From contig CANQNN010000002.1 in NCBI GenBank assembly GCA_947625205.1, forward strand, positions 186,001 to 250,000: a stretch of DNA of 64,000 nucleotides, written 5' to 3'. Below, piece by piece: positions 26,439 through 37,938 of the stretch. The first letter of the stretch is position 1. Each line of letters begins with the position of its first letter. The DNA comes from an uncultured Lachnospiraceae bacterium (GTDB taxonomy: Bacteria > Bacillota > Clostridia > Lachnospirales > Lachnospiraceae). The position numbers and the translations under genes are program-made. The notes under the pieces were generated by a model, which worked only from the letters and a program-made list of their open reading frames with translations, was not told the DNA's origin and did not search any database.

Positions 26439-27191
26439 ATGAACATTGCAGTTATTACCGGGGCATCCTCCGGAATGGGAATGGAATTTGCGCGGCAGAT
26501 AGACAGTCAGTTGTCAAAGACCGATGAGATATGGCTGCTTGCGCGCAGAAGAGAGCCGATGGAGGAGACGGCGCGCTCCATGAAGCTGAAAACGCGGATC
26601 ATTCCCATTGACATGACAAACGAACGGGAGATGGCGCAGTTTTCAGAAGTGCTTGCGATCAGCGCGCCCAAGATCACGTTGCTTGTCAATTGTGCGGGCG
26701 TGGGCTTTCATGGAAGCTTTGCAGGACAGGAGAGCGAAGAGATAGCCAGAATGATGCGTCTCAATATATATGCGCTGACCATGATGACCCGGATCTGTCT
26801 GCCTTATATGCGTAAAGGCAGTAGGATCGTGCAGTTTGCGTCCGGAGCGGCATTTTTGCCGCAGGCCGGTTTTGCGGTCTATGCTGCATCCAAAGCCTAT
26901 GTGTATTCGTACAGCCGTGCGCTTGGCAGGGAGCTTAAACAGCATGGCATCTGCGTGACATCTGTCTGTCCGGGACCGGTCAGAACGCCTTTTCTGGAAA
27001 ATGCCTATAAGGATATGTCCGGGATAAAAGGGATCAAGAAGCTAACGATGGCATATGCAGCCGATGTCGTGGCGCAGGCTATCAGAGACTGTAAGCGAAA
27101 CAGAAAGGTTTCCCTGTACGGTACGCCGATGAAGCTGCTGTACTGCGCAACGCAGAGCGTGCAGAACATGATCGGTATATTTGCACAATAA
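26439..27191 (+). CDS. Short-chain dehydrogenase/reductase (SDR)
   Basis: About 250 residues, classical SDR. Cofactor motif TGASSGMGMEFA, NCAGVG after beta-4, catalytic Tyr and Lys in YAASKAYVYSYS, and PGPVRTPF after beta-6. An NAD(P)-dependent oxidoreductase with unknown substrate; the FLENAY... C-terminal part resembles DltE/YqjQ-type SDRs. ATG 26439 is chosen because GGAG lies 7 bases before it, in preference to ATG 26427. Confidence 0.88.
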   Translation: MNIAVITGASSGMGMEFARQIDSQLSKTDEIWLLARRREPMEETARSMKLKTRIIPIDMTNEREMAQFSEVLAISAPKITLLVNCAGVGFHGSFAGQESEEIARMMRLNIYALTMMTRICLPYMRKGSRIVQFASGAAFLPQAGFAVYAASKAYVYSYSRALGRELKQHGICVTSVCPGPVRTPFLENAYKDMSGIKGIKKLTMAYAADVVAQAIRDCKRNRKVSLYGTPMKLLYCATQSVQNMIGIFAQ

Positions 27192-27214
27192 GATTACCAT
27201 GAACGGAGAGCGCT

Positions 27215-27787
27215 ATGAGGAATATAATCATTAAGAAAGGCTGTTACGGTTATATTCGAAATCGTAAGGCTGTTACGGCAGTCAGAACGGCTGCCTACAT
27301 TATACTGAGTGTCAGTCTGTATATTGCGGGGTACGTTACCACAGGGACCAGCAGAAATCTTCTGACAATCGTTGCGATCCTGGGATGTCTGCCAGCCTGT
27401 AAGAGCATGGTGAACTTCATTCTCTTTCTTAAGGCTTCGGGATGCAGCGGGAAGCTGAAGGAGCAGGTAAGCCCATATGACGGGAAGCTTACCGTCTTTT
27501 ATGATATGTATTTTACATCCTATCAGAAAGATTATCCGATCAGTCACATGGCATTAAAAGGCGGCATCCTATATGGGATCACAGAAAAACCAAAATGTGA
27601 CTGCGGCGGGGCGGAAAAGCACATTGAACAGCTTCTTGCGCAGGAGGGGATCAAAAATGTGGCGGTTAAGATCTACTCTGAACCGGACGAATATATTGAC
27701 CGACTAAGTCAGTTATCAAGTATGGATGTGGACGAACACAGGAAACGTGATAAGATAATAAATATGCTATACTCTGTAACGATTTAG
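27215..27787 (+). CDS. Unknown protein with two membrane segments
   Basis: 190 residues. Basic N-terminus (RNIIIKKGCYGYIRNRK), two hydrophobic helices (about 22-42 and 47-70), then a cytoplasmic-type domain of about 110 residues. That domain contains ITEKPKCDCGGAEKHIEQLLAQEGIKNVAVKIY, with a CxC pair that might bind metal. No family recognised. It sits 24 bases after the SDR gene and 15 bases before an RluA-type synthase, so it is probably in their operon. Confidence 0.65.
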   Translation: MRNIIIKKGCYGYIRNRKAVTAVRTAAYIILSVSLYIAGYVTTGTSRNLLTIVAILGCLPACKSMVNFILFLKASGCSGKLKEQVSPYDGKLTVFYDMYFTSYQKDYPISHMALKGGILYGITEKPKCDCGGAEKHIEQLLAQEGIKNVAVKIYSEPDEYIDRLSQLSSMDVDEHRKRDKIINMLYSVTI

Positions 27788-27802
27788 AGAAAAGGGAACA
27801 GG

Positions 27803-28894
27803 ATGATACAGATCAGAATAACCCCGGGTGACGCCGGACAGCGTCTGGACAAATATCTGCACAGGATCTTACCGAAAGCAGGCAGCGGATTTATCTATAA
27901 GATGCTGCGAAAAAAGAATATTACGCTAAACGGCAGGAAGGCTGAGGGCGGCGAAAAGATTGCGGACGGGGATAATGTGACGCTTTTCCTTGCAGAAGAT
28001 ACGCTTATAAAGTTCATGGGCTCCGGCATATATGACAGCCTGAAACAGTGTTCCGGCGAAAGAAAACGGGATTCAGCCGGTTCCCGGGGATCTGCGGGGC
28101 CCAGTATTATACACAGCACTGCCGCCGAATATGAGGCGGCCCGGCGAAAAATATCCGGCGTTCATATTCTGTATGAAGATCAGCATATTCTCCTGGCGGA
28201 TAAGCCGGCGGGTATCTTGACCCAGAAGGCGGCGCCGGCCGATCTGTCTCTGAACGAATGGTTGATCGGTTATCTTCTTGCGTGCGGGGCGGTAACACCG
28301 GCAAGCCTGGCTGTCTATAAACCGTCCGTCTGTAACCGTTTGGACCGCAATACAAGCGGGATCGTGCTTTGCGCTAAATCGCTGCAGGGCGCACAGCTTT
28401 TGGGGCGGCTGCTGAAAGACAGGACGCTTCATAAATATTACCGGCTGTATGTGAAGGGAAATATTGCCGAAGAGAAGCTGGTCGAGGGTTATCTGATAAA
28501 GGATGCAGAACAGAACAAAGTCCGTATAGTATCCGTAAAACCGCAGGAGCCGGAAGCCTTTTACATTAAGACTGCCTACAGACCGGTAAAGCAGGAAAAG
28601 GATAAGACGCTGCTTGAAGTGGAGCTCCTGACTGGGAGAACGCATCAGATCAGGGCGCATCTGGCAAGCATCGGGCATCCGCTCTTAGGCGATTATAAAT
28701 ATGGCGACAGGGAATGGAATGAGATATACCGCGCCAGATATCAGGTGCGGTCACAGCTTTTACATGCTTATAAAGTGGTTTTTCCGTCTCTGGAGGCGCC
28801 ATTTGAGGATATAAGCGGCAGAACGATCACATCCAGAGTGCCTGAGATATTTGAAAGGGTTTCCGAACCGGAAGAACCGGCCGGTACGGTGTAA
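27803..28894 (+). CDS. RluA-family pseudouridine synthase (RluC-like) with S4 domain
   Basis: 363 residues. S4 domain at 10-70 (QRLDKYLHRILPKAGSGFIYKML), a variable linker at about 75-115, then the RluA catalytic core with VCNRLDRNTSGIVLCAK (catalytic Asp in RLDRNTSG) and LLTGRTHQIRAHL. The linker is longer than usual and Gly/Ser rich. Probably acts on 23S rRNA; the precise uridine is not determined. A second RluA-type gene lies at 58873. Confidence 0.88.
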   Translation: MIQIRITPGDAGQRLDKYLHRILPKAGSGFIYKMLRKKNITLNGRKAEGGEKIADGDNVTLFLAEDTLIKFMGSGIYDSLKQCSGERKRDSAGSRGSAGPSIIHSTAAEYEAARRKISGVHILYEDQHILLADKPAGILTQKAAPADLSLNEWLIGYLLACGAVTPASLAVYKPSVCNRLDRNTSGIVLCAKSLQGAQLLGRLLKDRTLHKYYRLYVKGNIAEEKLVEGYLIKDAEQNKVRIVSVKPQEPEAFYIKTAYRPVKQEKDKTLLEVELLTGRTHQIRAHLASIGHPLLGDYKYGDREWNEIYRARYQVRSQLLHAYKVVFPSLEAPFEDISGRTITSRVPEIFERVSEPEEPAGTV

Positions 28895-28953
28895 CGCCGG
28901 GACAGCCCTAAAAATCCGGCTGTGTGGGCGAAGATAAGAAAGAGGATATTAAA

Positions 28954-29490
28954 ATGGCGACTTGGAATTCACGCGGTCTCAGAGGCTCCACTTTAGAGGA
29001 CCTGATAAACCGCACCAACGATAAATATCTGGAAAGCGGACTGGCTCTTATTCAGAAAATACCGACGCCGATCACGCCCATCAACATAGATAAGGAGAGC
29101 AGACACATTACGCTTGCCTATTTTGAACAAAAGAGTACTGTGGACTATATCGGTGTGGTACAGGGCATTCCGGTGTGCTTTGACGCGAAGGAATGCGCCG
29201 TGGACACCTTTTCCCTGCAAAATATCCATGCGCATCAGGTGGAGTTTATGGGACAGTTCGAGAAACAAAAAGGAATCGCCTTTTTCCTGATCTACTATTC
29301 CCACAAAGACGTCTTTTATTATCTGCCGTATGAAATGCTGCGCTATTTCTGGGACCGGGCAAGGGACGGCGGCAGAAAAAGCTTCCGGTATGAGGAACTG
29401 AATCCCGAATATATTCTTCCGAAAAAACACGGCATTCTCGTTCCGTATCTGGATATTTTGCAGAAGGATCTGGACGACAGGGCAGACTAG
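28954..29490 (+). CDS. recU: Holliday junction resolvase RecU
   Basis: 178 residues, the Gram-positive resolvase. Visible family blocks: NSRGLRGSTLEDLINRTNDKYLESGLALIQKIPTP, then QKSTVDYIGV and FDAKE (metal-binding Asp and ExK-type nuclease core), then NIHAHQVEFM and GIAFFLIYY. Resolves recombination intermediates and aids chromosome segregation. ATG 28954 has AGAGG 8 bases upstream; the GTG at 28924 is not supported. No ponA gene, its usual partner, is adjacent. Confidence 0.88.
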   Translation: MATWNSRGLRGSTLEDLINRTNDKYLESGLALIQKIPTPITPINIDKESRHITLAYFEQKSTVDYIGVVQGIPVCFDAKECAVDTFSLQNIHAHQVEFMGQFEKQKGIAFFLIYYSHKDVFYYLPYEMLRYFWDRARDGGRKSFRYEELNPEYILPKKHGILVPYLDILQKDLDDRAD

Positions 29491-29514
29491 TCATGAGCGG
29501 GCTGTTTTGTGTGG

Positions 29515-29543
29515 TTGACAAAAGAGTGCATTTAAGTTATAGT
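29515..29543 (+). promoter_or_regulatory. Promoter of the histidine operon
   Basis: TTGACA (29515-29520), 17-base spacer, TATAGT (29538-29543): near-consensus housekeeping promoter. The remaining leader to the hisZ start is about 77 bases and shows no T-box or His-rich leader peptide. Confidence 0.8.
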
Positions 29544-29620
29544 AGAAAAAGTTTAGTATGCTAATCAAGTAATGAATCACCGCTTTAACGTGATAAATTG
29601 CAGCGGAAAGGGAGCTTAAG

Positions 29621-30745
29621 ATGAACGCTAAGCTGGTACATACCCCTGAGGGAGTCAGGGACATCTATGGAGATGAGAAAGCAAAAAAAACTGTCGTTGA
29701 GGGATTGCTGCGCAAGGTGATAGCAGGGTACGGTTACCGGGATATACAAACGCCGACATTTGAATTTTTTGATGTTTTTTCCAGGGAAGTCGGTACGACA
29801 CCGTCGAAAGAGCTGTACAAATTCTTTGACAAAGAAGGCAATACACTGGTTCTGCGGCCTGATTTTACCCCTTCGATAGCCAGATGCGCGGCAAAGTATT
29901 TTATGGACGAGGATGTGCCGATCCGTTTTTGCTATCAGGGCAACACATTCACGAATACATCGGAGCTTCAGGGAAAACTGAAGGAAGTCACCCAGATGGG
30001 GGCGGAACTGATCGGGGATGCGTCTGTGCAGGCAGATGCGGAGATGATCGCTGTGACGATCGAGGCGTTATGGTACGCGGGACTCAACGATTTTCAGATC
30101 AGCATCGGCAATCTGGAGTATTTTAAAGGGATCTGCGCGGAGGCAGGACTGGACGAGGATACGGAGCTGGAGCTGCGGGAATATATTTCCGGCAAGAATT
30201 ATTTCGGCGCCGAAGAGCTGCTTGATAAAACAAACGCGGACAGGAAGGATAAGGAATTGCTGCTCAAGGTGAGCGATCTGTTCGGCCCGGCATCCATACT
30301 GGATGACGCAAAGAAGGCGGCAACGAACAAGCGCTCCCGCGATGCGGTTGAAAGACTGGAAAAAGTATACAGGGTATTGTGCGATTACGGCGTTGAGAAA
30401 TACGTTTCTTTTGACCTCGGCATGTTAAGCAAGTATAATTATTATACCGGCATTATCTTTAAGGGCTATACTTATGGCGTGGGCGATGCTATCGTCAAGG
30501 GCGGCAGGTATGATAATCTGCTGAAGCGTTTCGGCAAGGATTCGCCGGCGATCGGCTTTATGATAGTTGTGGACGACCTTTTATCGGCAATGAACAGACA
30601 GCACGTTGAGATCCCATGTGATGACGGTATCACGAAGCTGTATTACAGTGAGAAGGATTTCGGCGAGAAGCTAAGAGAAGCCCGTCAGATGCGCGGGGCA
30701 GGCAAGAGAGTAGAATTGCTGCCGGAAAGTGTGTTAAAAAGATGA
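29621..30745 (+). CDS. hisZ: ATP phosphoribosyltransferase regulatory subunit HisZ
   Basis: 374 residues, a catalytically inactive class II His-tRNA-synthetase paralogue. N-terminal HTPEGVRDIYGDE, motif 2-like LRPDFTPSIARCAAKYF and motif 3 region DAIVKGGRYDNLLKRFG are seen, while the synthetase anticodon-binding domain is missing. It assembles with the short HisG as an octamer and confers histidine inhibition. The ATGA overlap with hisG supports coupled synthesis. Confidence 0.92.
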   Translation: MNAKLVHTPEGVRDIYGDEKAKKTVVEGLLRKVIAGYGYRDIQTPTFEFFDVFSREVGTTPSKELYKFFDKEGNTLVLRPDFTPSIARCAAKYFMDEDVPIRFCYQGNTFTNTSELQGKLKEVTQMGAELIGDASVQADAEMIAVTIEALWYAGLNDFQISIGNLEYFKGICAEAGLDEDTELELREYISGKNYFGAEELLDKTNADRKDKELLLKVSDLFGPASILDDAKKAATNKRSRDAVERLEKVYRVLCDYGVEKYVSFDLGMLSKYNYYTGIIFKGYTYGVGDAIVKGGRYDNLLKRFGKDSPAIGFMIVVDDLLSAMNRQHVEIPCDDGITKLYYSEKDFGEKLREARQMRGAGKRVELLPESVLKR

Positions 30746-31386
30746 GTGAAGACAGATACTTAACATTTGCCCTCGGGAAAGGGCGGCTTGCCAATAAGAC
30801 AATGGAATTGTTTGAGAGAGTCGGCATTACATGCGAAGAGATGAAAGACAAGGATTCCCGCAGGCTGATCTTTGTAAACAACGAATTAAAGCTTAAGTTT
30901 TTCCTTGCGAAGAGTCCGGATGTGCCAACCTACGTAGAGTACGGCGCCGCCGATATCGGCGTGGTCGGTAAAGATACCATCATGGAAGAAAACAGGCGCG
31001 TCTATGAGGTGCTTGACTTAGGATACGGCAAATGCCGTATGTGCGTCTGCGGACCCGGGAGCGCAAAGGAACTGTTAAAGCATCACGAAATGATCCGTGT
31101 GGCGAGTAAATATCCTGCTATTGCGAAAGATTATTTTTATAATAAAAAGCATCAGACGGTGGATATCATTAAACTGAACGGTTCCGTGGAGCTGGCGCCT
31201 ATCGTCAAGCTTGCCGATGTGATCGTGGATATCGTGGAAACAGGTTCCACGCTGCGCGAGAACGGGCTGGAAGTATTGGAAGAGATCTGTCCTCTGTCGG
31301 CGCGTATGATCGTTAATCAGGTCAGTATGCAGATGGAGCCGGAGCGGATCAGGAAGTTGATACAGCGACTGAAGGAGAATCTGTGA
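30742..31386 (+). CDS. hisG: ATP phosphoribosyltransferase catalytic subunit (short form)
   Basis: 214 residues, the short HisG lacking the C-terminal regulatory domain, which fits the presence of hisZ. Motifs: FALGKGRLANKTMELF, ADIGVVGKDT and the PRPP-binding VDIVETGSTLRENGLEV. Catalyses the first step of histidine synthesis. Starts within the last codons of hisZ. Confidence 0.95.
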   Translation: MSEDRYLTFALGKGRLANKTMELFERVGITCEEMKDKDSRRLIFVNNELKLKFFLAKSPDVPTYVEYGAADIGVVGKDTIMEENRRVYEVLDLGYGKCRMCVCGPGSAKELLKHHEMIRVASKYPAIAKDYFYNKKHQTVDIIKLNGSVELAPIVKLADVIVDIVETGSTLRENGLEVLEEICPLSARMIVNQVSMQMEPERIRKLIQRLKENL

Positions 31387-31402
31387 TCGAAAGGAGAAAG
31401 CT

Positions 31403-32209
31403 ATGGAGAATAATGAAACAAACAGGACCGCAGAAAATAATTCCGGAAAAGAAAGAAGAGGCGGCATAAAGGAATGGAAGGGCATCATCATTGCGCTGAT
31501 CGCAGGGATATGCGCGATCCTGTGCATATGTATCATGTCGGACCGTCTTGTTACTTATAAGCAGACGGCAGGCGGGGGACTTACGGCTACCGGTTCCGCA
31601 AGCTGCGATTTTGAATCGGATCTGATCGTATGGCGAGGCAGTTATACAGCCTTTGATACGACAACGCAGGCAGCCTACCGGAAGCTTGCCAAAGACGGGG
31701 AAGCTGTCAAAAAATACCTTCTCGATAACGGCGTGACAGAGGATGAGATGACCTTCGGTTCTGTCAGCATCTCCCAGAGATGGCAGACCGAGTACAATGA
31801 TGCCGGATACGAGATCGGTAGCTATCTGGAAGGATACGACCTGTATCAGCAGATCACCATTACGTCATATGATGTGGATAAGGTGGACGCGATTTCCAGA
31901 GATGTCACTCAGCTGATTGAATCCAATGTGGAGTTTACCTCCTATGAGCCGGAATATTTCTATACGAAGCTGGACGAGTTAAAATTACAGCTTGTGGACG
32001 AGGCGACACAGAACGCCAAAGCCCGGATCGATATTATGGCGTCAGGAACGGGCGCGGAGCTTGGCGAACTGTTAAATGCCAACCTGGGTGTTTTCCAGAT
32101 CACTGCCCAGAACACAAGCTCCGAATACAGCTACGGCGGCGCTTTTGACACGAGCTCCAGGTTTAAGACCGCGTCCATTACCGTAAAGTTAAATTACAGC
32201 GTACAGTAA
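31403..32209 (+). CDS. SIMPL-domain (DUF541) protein, membrane-anchored
   Basis: 268 residues. A polar basic N-terminus precedes one membrane segment (about 28-46, WKGIIIALIAGICAILCICIM), so the rest is outside the cell. The SIMPL/DUF541 fold follows: LTATGSASCDFESDLIVWRGSY, AVKKYLLDNGVTEDEMTF and a C-terminal ITVKLNYSV strand. The family occurs in all kingdoms without a defined reaction. It lies between hisG (16 bases) and hisD (about 60 bases) with no terminator or promoter, so it is co-transcribed with histidine enzymes although no biochemical link is known. Confidence 0.82.
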   Translation: MENNETNRTAENNSGKERRGGIKEWKGIIIALIAGICAILCICIMSDRLVTYKQTAGGGLTATGSASCDFESDLIVWRGSYTAFDTTTQAAYRKLAKDGEAVKKYLLDNGVTEDEMTFGSVSISQRWQTEYNDAGYEIGSYLEGYDLYQQITITSYDVDKVDAISRDVTQLIESNVEFTSYEPEYFYTKLDELKLQLVDEATQNAKARIDIMASGTGAELGELLNANLGVFQITAQNTSSEYSYGGAFDTSSRFKTASITVKLNYSVQ

Positions 32210-32271
32210 CCGCCTGATAACAGGCAAAACGGCTACTTTACAATAATTCGACAGGAGGCTTGCAGAAAGCT

Positions 32272-33570
32272 ATGAGAACCGTACAACTGAACGAACAGAA
32301 TAAAGCCAGTCTGTTGCAGAATCTGTTAAAAAGAAGCCCGAACAATTACGGACAGTATGAGGAAACTGTGGCAAAGATCATCGCAGATGTAAGGGAACGG
32401 GGCGACAAAGCGGTCTTTAATTATACCAGACAGTTTGATAAATGGGACATCGGCGAAGATTCCGTCCGTGTGACGCAGCGTGAGATCGACGAGGCCTTTA
32501 ACTCCATCGAGCCGGAATTTGTCGAAGTGCTTAAGAGAGCCGCTGCGAATATTGAAGATTTTCATCGTAAACAGCTTAGAAACAGTTGGATCGATACCAA
32601 ACCGGACGGAAGCATTCTGGGACAGAGAATATTACCTATTGCAGTTTCGGGCGTCTATGTGCCCGGCGGCAAGGCGGCTTACCCCAGTAGCCTTCTGATG
32701 AATGTGATACCGGCAAAGGTTGCGGGCGTTAAGAAAGTCATTCTGACAACGCCTGCGGGTGCGGACGGAAAAGTCAATGCGGGTACGCTCGTTGCCGCCA
32801 GGATCGCGGGCGTGGATGAAATCTATAAAGTAGGCGGCGCGCAGGCGATCGCGGCGATGGCGTTCGGAACGGAGAGTATACCCAAGGTAGACAAGATCAC
32901 AGGCCCCGGCAACATTTTTGTGGCGCTTGCCAAGAAAGCCTGCTTCGGATATGTAAGCATAGACTCCATAGCGGGTCCCAGTGAGATACTGGTGCTTGCG
33001 GACGAGACAGCTAACCCGCGCTATGTGGCGGCGGATCTGCTGTCCCAGGCGGAGCATGACGAGCTCGCAAGCGCGATCCTGATCACCACGGATGCAAAGC
33101 TTGCAAAAGAGGTAGAGGCGCAGATCGAGGTCTTCCTAAAAGACTTGTCCAGAGCGGAGATCATAGAAAAGTCGCTCACACAGTACGGTTATATATTGCT
33201 TGCGGATTCTATGGATGAAGCTGTAGATGCGGCAAACGCGATCGCATCGGAGCATCTGGAGATCCTGACAAAAGACCCCTATGCGGTCATGACAAAGATA
33301 CAAAATGCCGGCGCTGTCTTTTTGGGCGAATATTCATCGGAGCCGCTGGGCGATTATTATGCAGGGCCGAATCATATTCTGCCTACAAACGGTACAGCAA
33401 GGTTTTTCTCACCGCTCAATGTAGATGACTTTATGAAGAAGACGAGCATTATCTCGTATTCAGAGGATGCGCTCAGGCGGGCGCATAAGGATATTGAGCT
33501 TTTCGCGGAGAAAGAAGGGCTTACGGCGCACGCAAACTCTATCAGGGTCAGATTTGAAGAAAGAGGGTAA
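32272..33570 (+). CDS. hisD: Histidinol dehydrogenase
   Basis: 432 residues, normal length. Oxidises histidinol twice to histidine with NAD. Motifs: PGGKAAYPSSLLMNVIPAKVAGV, GPGNIFVALAKK, IDSIAGPSEILVLAD, LLSQAEHD and YAGPNHILPTNGTARF, containing the zinc ligands and catalytic Glu-His. ATG 32272 has an AGGAGG 13 bases upstream; the TTG at 32260 is too close to that site. Confidence 0.95.
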   Translation: MRTVQLNEQNKASLLQNLLKRSPNNYGQYEETVAKIIADVRERGDKAVFNYTRQFDKWDIGEDSVRVTQREIDEAFNSIEPEFVEVLKRAAANIEDFHRKQLRNSWIDTKPDGSILGQRILPIAVSGVYVPGGKAAYPSSLLMNVIPAKVAGVKKVILTTPAGADGKVNAGTLVAARIAGVDEIYKVGGAQAIAAMAFGTESIPKVDKITGPGNIFVALAKKACFGYVSIDSIAGPSEILVLADETANPRYVAADLLSQAEHDELASAILITTDAKLAKEVEAQIEVFLKDLSRAEIIEKSLTQYGYILLADSMDEAVDAANAIASEHLEILTKDPYAVMTKIQNAGAVFLGEYSSEPLGDYYAGPNHILPTNGTARFFSPLNVDDFMKKTSIISYSEDALRRAHKDIELFAEKEGLTAHANSIRVRFEERG

Positions 33571-33572
33571 TT

Positions 33573-34160
33573 ATGGCAAGAACAGCAGATATAAACCGCA
33601 AAACCAAAGAGACTGATATCAGACTGTCGCTTGCGGTCGACGGCAAAGGGACAAGTGATATAAAGACGGGCATCGGATTTTTTGACCATATGCTGGAAGG
33701 GTTTTCCAGACACGGATTTTTTGATTTGACTCTCAGAGTCAATGGGGATCTTGACGTGGACGGACACCACACGGTGGAAGACACGGGGATCGTGCTGGGC
33801 ACGGCGATCAGGGAAGCGCTGGGCGATAAATCGGGAATAAAGCGCTACGGTTCCTTTATCCTGCCGATGGACGATGCGCTCTGCCTGTGCGCCATAGACC
33901 TGTGCGGAAGGCCCTATTTTTCTTTTGACTGCAAATTCCCCACAGAGCGCGTGGGCGGTCTGGAGACGGAGCTTGTCCGTGAATTTTTCTATGCGGTCAG
34001 CTACAGCGCCGGTATGAATCTGCATATCAGGATGCTTGACGGCGTCAATACGCATCACATGATCGAGGCTGCCTTTAAAGCATTTGGCAAGGCGCTTGAC
34101 GAGGCGGTATCTTACGATGAGAGAGTTACGGGCGTACTCAGCACCAAAGGCGCGCTGTAA
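33573..34160 (+). CDS. hisB: Imidazoleglycerol-phosphate dehydratase
   Basis: 195 residues, the monofunctional IGPD. The manganese-binding motifs are present: FFDHMLEGFSRHG, DGHHTVEDTGI and THHMIEAAFKAFGKAL. It starts two bases after hisD and precedes the fused hisIE gene by 51 bases. Confidence 0.95.
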   Translation: MARTADINRKTKETDIRLSLAVDGKGTSDIKTGIGFFDHMLEGFSRHGFFDLTLRVNGDLDVDGHHTVEDTGIVLGTAIREALGDKSGIKRYGSFILPMDDALCLCAIDLCGRPYFSFDCKFPTERVGGLETELVREFFYAVSYSAGMNLHIRMLDGVNTHHMIEAAFKAFGKALDEAVSYDERVTGVLSTKGAL

Positions 34161-34211
34161 AATCGTACGGGTACAGCATAAGAAACATCAGAAAGGGCAA
34201 GACATACAATT

Positions 34212-35495
34212 ATGAGTTACAAAAAATTTATCCCATGTATCTATCTGTACAGAGGGGACGCCGTAAAAAGCTTCACAGACCGGACTATCATTGACACAAA
34301 CCCGGCGGCGCTGGCTAAATTTTATGGCGACAACAACGCGGATGAACTGATCGTTTACGATATGTCGGAGGGTGATGCGGAGCATGAGGCGGCGCTGGAT
34401 ATCATTAAAGCGATCTGCTGTGAGGCAGAAATTCCGGTAACTGGCGCCGGCAACGTAAAGCGCATGGAAGACATTAAGAAATTGCTCTATGCGGGGTGCA
34501 GAAAAGCGGCGCTCAACTATTCTAAGCCGGATAATGTTGCGCTTACCGAAGGGGTATCAGGGAAGTTTGGCAAAGACAGGATAGCGGCATGCGTGACGGA
34601 GGCCGCAACGATCAGTGAGAATGCGGATATTCTGGAGCAGTATGTGACAGAAATCATCCTTGTAAAAGAAAAAGAGCTGAAGGATGCTATCCGCGTGTCG
34701 TCCCAGCCTGTCATTGCCTCCATACCGGACGTTTCGCTGGATAAGATACTGGAGCTTCTGTCAAATGACAATATCTGCGGAATATCCGGAAACGCCATCA
34801 ATGAGAATGCAAAGGAGCTGCCCGCGATCAAGCAGTTTTGCCGCAATAACGGTATCTGCGTGAATACCTTTGAACCTGCGGTCAGATGGGATGAGTTCAA
34901 GTTAAATTCCGACGGCCATGTAACGGTGGTGGTACAGGACTACAGGACCGATGAAGTTCTGATGGTGGCCTACATGAACGAGGAGGCCTACAATACGACG
35001 CTGCAGACCGGCAAAATGACCTATTACAGCAGAAGCCGTAAGGAATTGTGGGTCAAAGGAGAGACGAGCGGTCATTACCAGTATGTCAAGTCTATGACGG
35101 CAGACTGCGATAAAGACACCATACTTGCTAAGGTGTCGCAGGTCGGTGCGGCCTGCCATACCGGTTCGCATTCCTGTTTCTTTAATGAGATCATGTCCAA
35201 AGAGTATGAGGCATCGAATCCGCTTAAGGTCTTTGAACAGGTATTCGACGTCATCAAGGACAGGAAGATACATCCGAAGGAAGGTTCCTACACCAACTAT
35301 CTGTTCGATAAGGGCATCGACAAGATACTGAAAAAGCTTGGCGAAGAGGCAACGGAGATCGTGATCGCCGCCAAGAATCCCAACGCCAATGAAGTAAAAT
35401 ATGAGATCGCCGATTTCCTGTATCATATGATGGTTCTGATGGCGGAAAAGAACGTGACATGGGAGGAGATCACTGCGGAGCTGGCGCGAAGATAA
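34212..35495 (+). CDS. hisIE: HisF/HisA-like barrel fused to phosphoribosyl-AMP cyclohydrolase/phosphoribosyl-ATP pyrophosphatase (HisIE)
   Basis: 427 residues in three parts. Residues 1-220 are a HisA/HisF-like (beta-alpha)8 barrel: [14 protein letters not shown] aligns with the IPCLDVKDGxVVKG start of His[14 protein letters not shown] with [29 protein letters not shown] with the VGGGIRSVEDARxLLxAG phosphate site. The catalytic Asp of CLD is Tyr here (CIY), and the second Asp region reads AACVTEA, so this part looks inactive. Residues 225-330 are HisI with zinc cysteines in TADCDKDT and [12 protein letters not shown]. Residues 335-427 are HisE ([14 protein letters not shown] ... FLYHMMVLM). 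No hisA, hisF, hisH or hisC is in the operon. Confidence 0.88.
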
Positions 35496-35529
35496 GACGT
35501 GATATCTGTCCTTGTTATCATGGAGTATA

Positions 35530-35555
35530 GAACGGGTTGACGCCCGTTCTTTTTT
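35530..35555 (+). terminator. Terminator of the histidine operon
   Basis: Perfect 7-bp stem GAACGGG / CCCGTTC, 6-base loop, then six T (35550-35555), 35 bases after the hisIE stop. Confidence 0.88.
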
Positions 35556-35607
35556 ATTAACAGTATGCATACAATTAACCAACACGATCGTGGATAGGCA
35601 GTATGCA

Positions 35608-36018
35608 ATGGAACGAAAAGCTTCTCTGGACAAAAAGCTGGCGCTTGCGCAATACATAAGGGAGGAAAATCACGGAAACCGTATGAAGATCAGGCAGCGG
35701 GAGAAGGTTCTGTATGGGACGGACACACAGCCGCCGCTTTACGATACGGGAAAATTATATACGATGGATCAACCGGGCGGTATTTCGCCGGAGAATGGCG
35801 TGGCGCCGGGATTTTCTACGGGCACGTTTAAATACCGCATGGCTTTGGCGATTCTTTTGTTTGTATTATTTCTTTTCTGTGACACCGGCGGTAATAAGAT
35901 AGGCGGTTATACTACCGCGCAGATACATGATATGATCATGGCGGACACCTTTAACCTGTACGGTGAGGAAAGCGGGACTTCCGGCGGGCTGGCAGCTTTG
36001 CTTGATTTCGGACAGTAA
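35608..36018 (+). CDS. Unknown small protein with one membrane segment
   Basis: About 136 residues from ATG 35608. The N-terminus is charged (ERKASLDKKLALAQYIREENHGNRMKI), a single hydrophobic helix is present near 77-93 (MALAILLFVLFLFCD), and about 40 residues follow outside it. There is no signal peptidase site, so it is likely a single-pass protein. No family recognised. The frame is open further upstream, but the histidine terminator makes an earlier start unlikely. It precedes the radical SAM gene by 45 bases. Confidence 0.6.
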   Translation: MERKASLDKKLALAQYIREENHGNRMKIRQREKVLYGTDTQPPLYDTGKLYTMDQPGGISPENGVAPGFSTGTFKYRMALAILLFVLFLFCDTGGNKIGGYTTAQIHDMIMADTFNLYGEESGTSGGLAALLDFGQ

Positions 36019-36063
36019 ATCTTATATACTAAAATGAAAGCAGATCATTGAAGGATTACGAGT

Positions 36064-37938
36064 ATGAGAAAACTTGCGCTTAGCGATGAGATATTGATGC
36101 AGATAGAGAAACCCGCCCGCTATATCGGCAACGAGGTCAACTCCGTCATGAAGGATAAAGAACATGTGGCTGTGCGGTTTGCCATGTGTTTTCCCGATGT
36201 ATATGAGATCGGTATGTCCCATCTGGGGATCCAGATCCTATATAGTATGCTGAATGAATGGGATGACGTGTGGTGCGAGCGCGTCTATTCGCCGTGGGTG
36301 GATCTGGATAAGATCATGAGGGAGCAGCGCATCCCTCTTTTTGCGTTAGAATCACAGGAACCCGTGAAGGACATGGATTTTCTAGGCATTACGATCCAGT
36401 ATGAAATGTGTTATACCAATATCCTGCAGGTGCTCGACCTGGCGCAGATACCGGTCTATGCCGGGGACCGCGGCGAAGATGTTCCGATCGTGATCGGCGG
36501 CGGACCGTGTACATATAATCCTGAGCCCATTGCTGATTTCTTCGATCTGTTCTATATCGGCGAGGGAGAGACGCAGTATAGGAATCTGTTTGACTGCTAT
36601 CTTGAAAACCGTAAGGGTGGCGGATCGAGACATGATTTTCTGCGAAAAGCCGCAAAGCTTCCGGGTATTTACGTACCACAGTTTTATGAAGAACAGTATA
36701 ATGAGGACGGCACGATACGCGGCCGTCGTAAATTATATGAGGACATTCCGGATACGATCTTAAAACAACTGGTGACGGATATGGATAACGCTTATTATCC
36801 GCTCAAACCCGTTGTGCCCTTTATTAAAGTGACACAGGACAGAGTGGTGCTGGAAATTCAGCGGGGTTGTATACGGGGCTGCCGTTTCTGTCAGGCGGGA
36901 CAATTATACCGCCCGGTGCGTGAACGCAGTGCGGACAGGCTTAAAGAGTATGCAAAGCAGCTGCTCGCCAATACGGGCCATGAAGAAATCTCATTAAGTT
37001 CCTTAAGCTCCAGCGATTACACGCAGTTAAACGAGCTGCTGGATTTTCTGATAGACGACTGCGACAAGAGACACGTCAATATATCCCTGCCGTCTCTTCG
37101 GATCGATGCCTTTTCACTGGATGTGATGAGTAAGGTACAGGATGTGAAGAAAAGCAGTCTGACTTTCGCGCCGGAGGCGGGCAGCCAGCGCCTGCGGGAT
37201 GTCATCAACAAAGGATTGACCGAAGAAGTCATCTTAAAAGGTGCGGCGCTTGCCTTTAAAGGCGGCTGGACCAGAGTAAAGCTGTACTTTATGCTCGGTC
37301 TCCCCACAGAGACGGATGAGGATATCAAGGGGATCGGCGATCTATCCAATAAGATCGCGGCGGTCTTTTTCGACACAGTGCCGAAGGACAAGCGTGTGAA
37401 CGGAAGGGTACAGATCGTGACAAGCACATCCTTCTTTATTCCCAAGCCTTTTACGCCTTTTCAGTGGGCTTCCATGTGCACGAAGGAGGAATTCATTGAT
37501 AAGGCTTATCTGACCAGACAGGGCATTATGGAGCAGCTGAACCAGAAAAGCATCAAATATAACTGGCATGAGGCTGATATAAGCGTACTGGAGGGCGTCT
37601 TTGCCAGAGGCGACCGCCGGATCGCAAAAGTCATATATGAAGCTTATAAAAAGGGCTGTCTGTTTGATTCGTGGAGCGAGTATTTCCGCAATGATGTATG
37701 GCTGGAGTGTTTCGAGGCGTGCGGCGTGGATATCGGTTTTTACACGACGAGAGAACGCGCGGATAATGAGATATTTCCGTGGGATTTCTTAGACTGCGGC
37801 GTGACGAAAGAGTTCCTGTTAAGAGAATGGAAAAAGGCGCAGACCCAGACCGTATCCAAAAACTGCAGGGAACAGTGCCAGGGATGCGGTGCCAACCGGT
37901 TCGGCGTGGGGATATGCTATGATAAAAATGCGGGCTGA
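36064..37938 (+). CDS. B12-binding-type radical SAM protein (TIGR03960 family)
   Basis: 624 residues. N-terminal Rossmann-like region (VRFAMCFPDVYEIGMSHLGIQILY), then a radical SAM barrel with RGCIRGCRFCQAG (CxxxCxxC) near residue 270, and a C-terminal region with the Cys-rich CREQCQGCGANRFG. In Firmicutes this family is always next to the DUF2344 protein and the RNase G-L21 genes, as here. The reaction is unknown; a link to RNA or ribosome modification is inferred from context. Confidence 0.9.
   Translation: MRKLALSDEILMQIEKPARYIGNEVNSVMKDKEHVAVRFAMCFPDVYEIGMSHLGIQILYSMLNEWDDVWCERVYSPWVDLDKIMREQRIPLFALESQEPVKDMDFLGITIQYEMCYTNILQVLDLAQIPVYAGDRGEDVPIVIGGGPCTYNPEPIADFFDLFYIGEGETQYRNLFDCYLENRKGGGSRHDFLRKAAKLPGIYVPQFYEEQYNEDGTIRGRRKLYEDIPDTILKQLVTDMDNAYYPLKPVVPFIKVTQDRVVLEIQRGCIRGCRFCQAGQLYRPVRERSADRLKEYAKQLLANTGHEEISLSSLSSSDYTQLNELLDFLIDDCDKRHVNISLPSLRIDAFSLDVMSKVQDVKKSSLTFAPEAGSQRLRDVINKGLTEEVILKGAALAFKGGWTRVKLYFMLGLPTETDEDIKGIGDLSNKIAAVFFDTVPKDKRVNGRVQIVTSTSFFIPKPFTPFQWASMCTKEEFIDKAYLTRQGIMEQLNQKSIKYNWHEADISVLEGVFARGDRRIAKVIYEAYKKGCLFDSWSEYFRNDVWLECFEACGVDIGFYTTRERADNEIFPWDFLDCGVTKEFLLREWKKAQTQTVSKNCREQCQGCGANRFGVGICYDKNAG

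Follow-up and report, generated by a model that had tools for sequence, protein, structure and literature searches.

A putative pseudo-HisF barrel fused to HisIE in Lachnospiraceae, and a face of its helix alpha3 that accompanies the neighboring HisE domain

The his operon of an uncultured Lachnospiraceae bacterium raises the question of why a protein with both a HisI and a HisE domain should begin with some 222 further residues that resemble the HisF/HisA barrel but lack its catalytic aspartates. Here we report an analysis of this gene, of its relatives, and of the other histidine biosynthesis genes in the same genome, and ask from which enzyme the barrel descends, whether it can still be active, and what it may be kept for. 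The whole stretch of DNA analyzed, called the window below, comprises 64,000 nucleotides (G000:C2:186001-250000) of a genome of 2.9 Mb in 44 contigs; G and L numbers denote the genomes and loci compared.

The his operon and the domains of its barrel-HisI-HisE gene

The operon in the window has the order hisZ-hisG-(SIMPL)-hisD-hisB-pseudo-HisF-HisI-HisE gene. Its genes, and the predicted parts of the last of them, are the following.

29621..30745, + strand, hisZ (TIGR00443 over the cut-off)
30742..31386, + strand, hisG (TIGR00070 over the cut-off)
32260..33570, + strand, hisD (TIGR00069 over the cut-off)
33573..34160, + strand, hisB (NF002111 over the cut-off)
34212..35495, + strand, pseudo-HisF-HisI-HisE gene, 427 aa plus stop (translation and Pfam/NCBIfam)
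34212..34877, + strand, putative pseudo-HisF barrel, residues 1-222 (PF00977; HisF profile match of residues 1-131)
34242..34244, + strand, Y11, which aligns with catalytic Asp11 of HisF
34299..34595, + strand, conserved half-barrel core, residues 30-128
34461..34499, + strand, alpha3 signature, residues 84-96 (R84, E86, D87, K89, K90, Y93, G95, C96)
34596..34598, + strand, T129, which aligns with catalytic Asp130 of HisF
34887..35216, + strand, HisI domain, residues 226-335 (PF01502, NF002747)
35217..35492, + strand, HisE domain, residues 336-427 (PF01503, TIGR03188)

The preliminary description of this gene as a HisF/HisA-like barrel fused to HisIE holds, in that the reading frame is real, the protein strings quoted there occur in its translation, and PF00977 (His_biosynth) matches residues 7-127 with 59.9 bits, over the Pfam cut-off of 23.6. 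Pfam places PRA-CH (PF01502) at residues 251-324 and PRA-PH (PF01503) at residues 344-427, and the protein belongs to the bifunctional HisIE family by score (NF002747, 261.9 bits, cut-off 187). The HisI residues D298, C299, D300, D302, C315, H316, and C322 and the acidic HisE residues E378, E379, E382, E398, and D401, which we take to be site residues of the two enzymes, are invariant in 30 aligned relatives including the window protein. Both partner domains, described earlier as keeping their sites, are accordingly intact by these residues, and both activities are predicted.

No hisA, hisF, or hisH reading frame lies within the operon or directly after it in the window, as had been noted. The search of the genome for separate copies that had been proposed located hisF on contig 24 (387.4 bits, cut-off 294.55) adjoining a hisH-like frame, and a eukaryote-type HisA gene on contig 1 (TIGR02129, 319.8 bits, cut-off 229.3); nothing in this genome scored over the cut-off for canonical HisA (TIGR00007). 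Since separate hisA and hisF genes exist, this is not a genome without them, the case in which the barrel was to be regarded as active. Contig 3 also encodes an AglZ/HisF2-type barrel over the cut-off (L002) beside a HisH-like frame, and a further frame nearby is presumably the partner amidation enzyme.

Within the operon, a SIMPL (DUF541) gene stands between hisG and hisD (31403-32209), and the 168-aa frame 3' of the operon (35512-36018) has no Pfam or NCBIfam match. There was no Rfam match at E <= 0.01 in positions 27000-37000, so that no T-box or other catalogued RNA element is seen around the operon. The same split of his genes is described in Roseburia, where the gene is called hisEI and no barrel is mentioned in the accessible part of the report (PMC7478625).

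Distribution, catalytic residues, and origin of the barrel

The full-length fusion is present in 25 of 25 same-genus genomes, our own included, at 75-100% identity, and a further same-genus fusion (G100) begins at a contig end. Relatives of the barrel number 481 in named genomes; the best 80 of these 481 mostly bear Lachnospiraceae titles, Kineothrix alysoides being one, while a few are metagenome bins that carry other names. Of 250 genomes from the family, at least 237 match the whole protein and at least 243 match the barrel profile, both being counts that include cross-matches to HisF and HisIE and not counts of fusions. Across 146 genomes of the order, the barrel profile is matched at E <= 1e-22 in 51, with 14 in the family and 37 outside, and the frames that hold 36 of these 37 outside matches are 252-309 aa long, similar to HisF in size. 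A match outside the family at G389:C2:10856-11254 belongs to a 478-aa frame and is possibly another HisF fusion. A weak, shortened relative of the barrel occurs in another family (L033 in G027). On a HisD tree, barrel presence needs 11 changes, 3 of them forced by supported branches.

In the profile alignment to HisF, Y11 falls on Asp11 and T129 on Asp130. None of the 150 distinct barrels carries Asp at the first site (129 have Tyr, 8 Phe, 3 gaps, and the rest other residues), 18 carry it at the second, and none has both. Among the rows classed as HisF, the first Asp is found in 28 of 28 and the second in 27; the one row that lacks it, L033, is a barrel relative to judge by its context. HisA rows have the first Asp in 34 of 38 (4 gaps) and the second in all 38. 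Over residues 1-221, the window protein reaches 55.7 bits with TIGR00735 (hisF, cut-off 294.55) and 33.7 bits with TIGR00007 (HisA, cut-off 228.95), far from either family threshold. With the catalytic Asp pair gone, the barrel is predicted to be catalytically dead, in agreement with the earlier remark that its first catalytic Asp is Tyr. That it still catalyzes the HisA or HisF reaction through other residues is scarcely credible for a domain that, although over the PF00977 cut-off, has no Asp at site 11 in 150 barrels (3 being gapped there) and never both catalytic aspartates, and that coexists with a separate hisF and a eukaryote-type hisA in its genome.

The likeness to HisF and HisA that had been described stands and goes well beyond chance, and scores, tree, and operon position sharpen it to a predicted descent from HisF. 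In a PDB search with a profile of 30 barrels, the best matches are HisF structures (9.8e-31 for HisF-LUCA, then 9.5e-28), and the best HisA follows at 7.1e-14. The NCBIfam families matched by residues 1-221, all below their cut-offs, are led by WbuZ (71.0 bits) and AglZ/HisF2 (58.7 bits), both relatives of HisF, before hisF and HisA with the scores given above. In a tree of the N-terminal half, the 22 barrels group together (one clade, 100/99) and fall with HisF across a 95/87 branch from HisA, in an analysis whose bootstrap was not settled and in which six rows have long branches; its 65 rows comprise 22 of the 150 distinct barrels, 22 HisF, 19 of the 38 HisA, one WbuZ, and one eukaryote-type HisA.

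The order hisA-hisF-hisI(E) is found in operons of the order, in some family members, and in plasmid records. A canonical hisA lies directly 5' of the barrel-HisI(E) gene in L183, L213, L214, and the weak relative L033, where the latter gene thus occupies the place of hisF. In L210 (904-2826), HisA, a short pseudo-HisF, HisI, and HisE are joined in one 641-aa frame with two His_biosynth stretches. L190 is a full-length HisF-HisI fusion, which means that such a first fusion step does occur. Scores, tree, and gene order together make the barrel a putative pseudo-HisF and not a pseudo-HisA.

An origin from HisA had been suggested by the contrast in HisA type among genomes and by active HisA-HisI fusions. 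It was rejected because the barrel and canonical HisA coexist (L183, L213, L214, and L210) and because score and tree point to HisF. The type of HisA is a trait separate from the barrel. It was surveyed in 76 family genomes, picked by whole-protein and barrel-profile matches, of which 40 have strong fusions and 36 do not. The eukaryote-type enzyme, which fungi use, is over the cut-off in 40 of 40 genomes with strong fusions, none of which has canonical HisA, and in 22 of the 36 others, 14 of which have the canonical type. Throughout this sample the two types are mutually exclusive (62 eukaryote-type and 14 canonical, exactly one in each genome). In L184, L185, L186, and L187, a canonical HisA is fused in frame to HisI, and their genomes gave no HisE match. 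A foreign origin of the working HisF was considered and found unsupported: the 21 HisF proteins encoded apart, in family genomes with or without the barrel, form one clade (100/99) beside the HisF of the order.

The helix alpha3 face and the state of HisE

The barrel is under purifying selection. In the 300 pairwise comparisons of 25 same-genus sequences, mean pN divided by mean pS gives 0.126 for residues 1-128 and 0.245 for residues 129-222, compared with 0.077 for HisI and 0.058 for HisE, values that are rough because synonymous sites are saturated in 176-247 of the 300 pairs, depending on the region. By weighted conservation over the 150 barrels, the well-kept residues outside the HisF consensus include Y11, S52, D55, H58, R84, K89, Y93, C96, S116, and K123, and position 90 is Lys in 90% of barrels vs 33% of HisF. 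The signature of helix alpha3, a helix assigned from the alignment to HisF, has the pattern E86-D87-x-K89-K90-x-x-Y93, and helical wheel angles group E86, K89, K90, and Y93 on one side, with I88, L91, and L92 opposite.

This signature outlasts other conserved positions. Among proteins with intact HisE, the 43 whose barrels have diverged most (core below 110 bits) retain K89, K90, and Y93 in 41 cases each, compared with 18 for D50, 19 for G80 of the phosphate loop, and 22 each for S52 and D55; the best-kept element of the barrel therefore appears to be the outward face of alpha3, not the active site. In many relatives, the C-terminal half is eroded or almost absent. Proteins with intact HisE have a median of 98 residues between core and HisI, compared with 16 in L294 and 21 in L293, distances so short that the second half of the barrel must be nearly gone there, and both of these keep RRLEDVKKYLYAG. 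Because the alpha3 face is kept in eroded barrels, and given the wheel angles, the constrained part looks like an outward helix face and not a ligand pocket.

Conservation of this face was then compared with the state of the HisE domain in 195 distinct reading frames in which a barrel-like core precedes HisI. Eight of them were excluded ahead of the counts, namely five full-length HisF/HisA fusions, L142 and L216 at contig ends, and L213 with a break in HisE. The acidic motif of HisE is intact in 177 of the remaining 187 and changed in 7, and HisE is absent from 3. Of R84, K89, K90, and Y93, three or more remain in 174 of the 177 proteins whose HisE is intact, in 3 of 7 with damaged HisE, and in none of 3 without HisE (Fisher's exact test, 2.1e-5 for intact vs lost and 2.5e-5 for intact vs damaged, with only 3 lost and 7 damaged proteins entering the tests). 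At similar divergence (core below 110 bits), the signature is found in 40 of 43 proteins with intact HisE vs 0 of 3 without HisE (p 0.0013). The three misses among the 177 are L302 (a contig-end fragment), L033 (distant, with TKYY), and L222 (KRKS), whose HisE passes the motif test but has diverged (113.7 bits).

All three HisE-less barrels keep G80, G95, G120, D50, and E86, and none keeps K89, K90, or Y93; they have diverged overall (59-89 bits), so that general relaxation explains part of the loss of the signature. L274, L275, and L277, with damaged HisE, keep KKY. When each of the 10 proteins with absent or damaged HisE is paired with its nearest intact relative, KKY is missing only on the former side in 7 pairs, only on the latter in 0, with 3 ties (p 0.016). 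HisE-linked events are few and the trees poorly resolved, with 10 changes of HisE state on the HisI tree and a single independent pair on supported branches, which leaves the independent-pairs test underpowered. L219 (1713-2972) is a barrel-HisIE protein in which the HisI site residues are lost and HisE is intact, and it keeps RKRY. Taken over these sequences, the alpha3 face appears to be kept together with an intact neighboring HisE and to be lost in most other cases.

HisE itself was searched for in 35 genomes. There was no HisE match in any of the 26 examined genomes that have neither the barrel nor the ordinary hisA-hisF-hisI(E) order, a set picked before the search and partly by low whole-protein score, which favors HisE-less genomes. 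The possible counterexamples examined, G149, G115, and G207, with HisE and short frames, all proved to have ordinary hisA-hisF-hisI(E) operons, in G149 with separate HisI and HisE; G068 and G070, which also combine HisE with low whole-protein scores, are further candidates for HisE without a barrel. HisI-only genomes (e.g., those of L198-L202) have no recognizable HisE, which was found in 0 of 29 chosen genomes (the 26 without a barrel and 3 with HisE-less barrels, the latter included for looking HisE-less) vs 6 of 6 others. There was no HisE match in 49 of the 250 family genomes, some of which may lack the pathway. In Desulfovibrio, a MazG protein performs the HisE step, according to the available portion of PMC5764234.

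Two further candidates were set aside. Replacement of a missing HisE catalytic residue by the barrel was considered, and no such loss was seen in fused HisE. As possible contacts with HisI, W226 and Y244 were considered because fused proteins conserve them better than HisI-only proteins do, a comparison confounded by relatedness and left unused.

Possible role of the barrel and comparison with known systems

The reading we prefer, and to which we give about an even chance, is that the barrel is a second copy of hisF, fused, catalytically dead, and kept as an architectural domain whose alpha3 face packs on HisE. The second copy would have stayed between hisA and hisIE, the working hisF lying apart with hisH, and would then have fused to HisI(E) and lost catalysis. 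The outward face formed by E86, K89, K90, and Y93, with R84, would pack on HisE, either within one chain or across to the partner chain, and keep HisE and HisI fixed relative to each other; this should favor the transfer of PR-AMP from the former to the latter. The sites of HisE and HisI are more than 40 A apart in plant HISN2, and the orientation of PRA-PH differs by about 40 degrees between HISN2 and Shigella HisIE, as given in the accessible text of PMC8102479; passage of PR-AMP by proximity channeling without a tunnel is argued for in the part of PMC10242683 consulted. This distance, the variable HisE orientation, and channeling are what a clamp would act on. A bolder version, which we regard as tentative and rather doubtful, is that K89, K90, and Y93 clamp HisE over HisI and enforce the transfer, so that loss of HisE would free the barrel to decay and disappear. 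Among the roles of scaffold, channel, or sensor offered in the preliminary description, scaffold is probably the likeliest, whereas ligand sensing is unsupported.

It is unlikely, though it would fit the same association of alpha3 with HisE, that the face serves to dock a different pathway enzyme (HisG/HisZ, the maker of the HisE substrate, or HisA/HisF) in a way that pays only when HisE is present. In its favor, hisG was seen in the operons of several HisE-less relatives (e.g., L183, L189, and L198); against it, a partner still present after the signature has been lost does not alone explain the pattern.

A ligand sensor or allosteric domain, with the old active site binding a phosphate ester of the pathway, seems to us quite unlikely. 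In its favor, 144 of 150 barrels retain the HisF-like D50 and 117 of 150 have Asn at the site of HisF N103, but the position of HisF G82 is Asn in 125 of 150, the divergent barrels with intact HisE lose D50 and G80 far more often than K89, K90, or Y93, and the second half of the barrel is nearly gone in L293 and L294. The same substitution at G82, the erosion of the C-terminal half in many relatives, and the survival of the outward helix face without D50 and G80 argue against the earlier suggestion that the domain binds ProFAR/PRFAR-type ligands.

Passive carriage of a functionless relic by the fusion is improbable. Many relatives do have a shortened barrel and others none, with the changes of presence on the HisD tree noted above, but such a relic would hardly have a pN/pS of 0.126 in its N-terminal half, or near-invariant K89, K90, and Y93 in barrels stripped of most other conserved sites.

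The sequences are already public in genomes, and a like operon layout is in print. Our literature search, outside which most subscription journals fall, returned no paper describing the dead barrel, its origin from HisF, or the HisE-linked helix, which suggests that these three are new.

Compared with HisIE proteins (NF002747), the window protein shares the HisI and HisE domains with their site residues and differs in its approximately 222 extra N-terminal residues, a predicted dead HisF barrel; elsewhere, HisIE usually has no barrel. The plant enzyme HISN2 and HisIE of Shigella are dimers of PRA-CH plus PRA-PH, and the available part of PMC8102479 mentions no barrel. With HisF (TIGR00735) the barrel has in common the sequence of residues 1-131 and the place in the operon, whereas its catalytic Asp pair is gone, it is fused to HisIE, and its second half is degenerate. 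The HisF-HisI fusion L190 and the HisA-HisI fusions L184-L187 of the same family likewise place a barrel from the superfamily immediately ahead of HisI within a single frame; that of L190 is of full length (287.7 bits to PF00977), with HisE separate, and those of L184-L187 are full-length HisA, 60-100% identical to the G057 copy, in genomes where HisE was not found. Fungal HIS4 also has a domain before HisIE, of 160-220 residues and of unknown function in the accessible text of PMC1963479. Homology of that region to the barrel found no sequence support, the hhalign probability for two sequences being no higher than 1.2 with the barrel profile and 3.8 with HisA.

For the passage of PR-AMP from HisE to HisI, the family offers a natural series, from active HisA/HisF fusions through dead full barrels, half barrels, and barrel-less forms to HisE-less forms, in which it can be tested whether a non-catalytic domain sets the geometry between HisE and HisI. 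Domain atrophy (PMC4432964), in which a domain loses core elements, has that loss in common with the barrel, whereas here the remaining element appears to track the state of the fused partner domain. The barrel may also be a case in which the elements spared by erosion reveal the function left to a pseudoenzyme.
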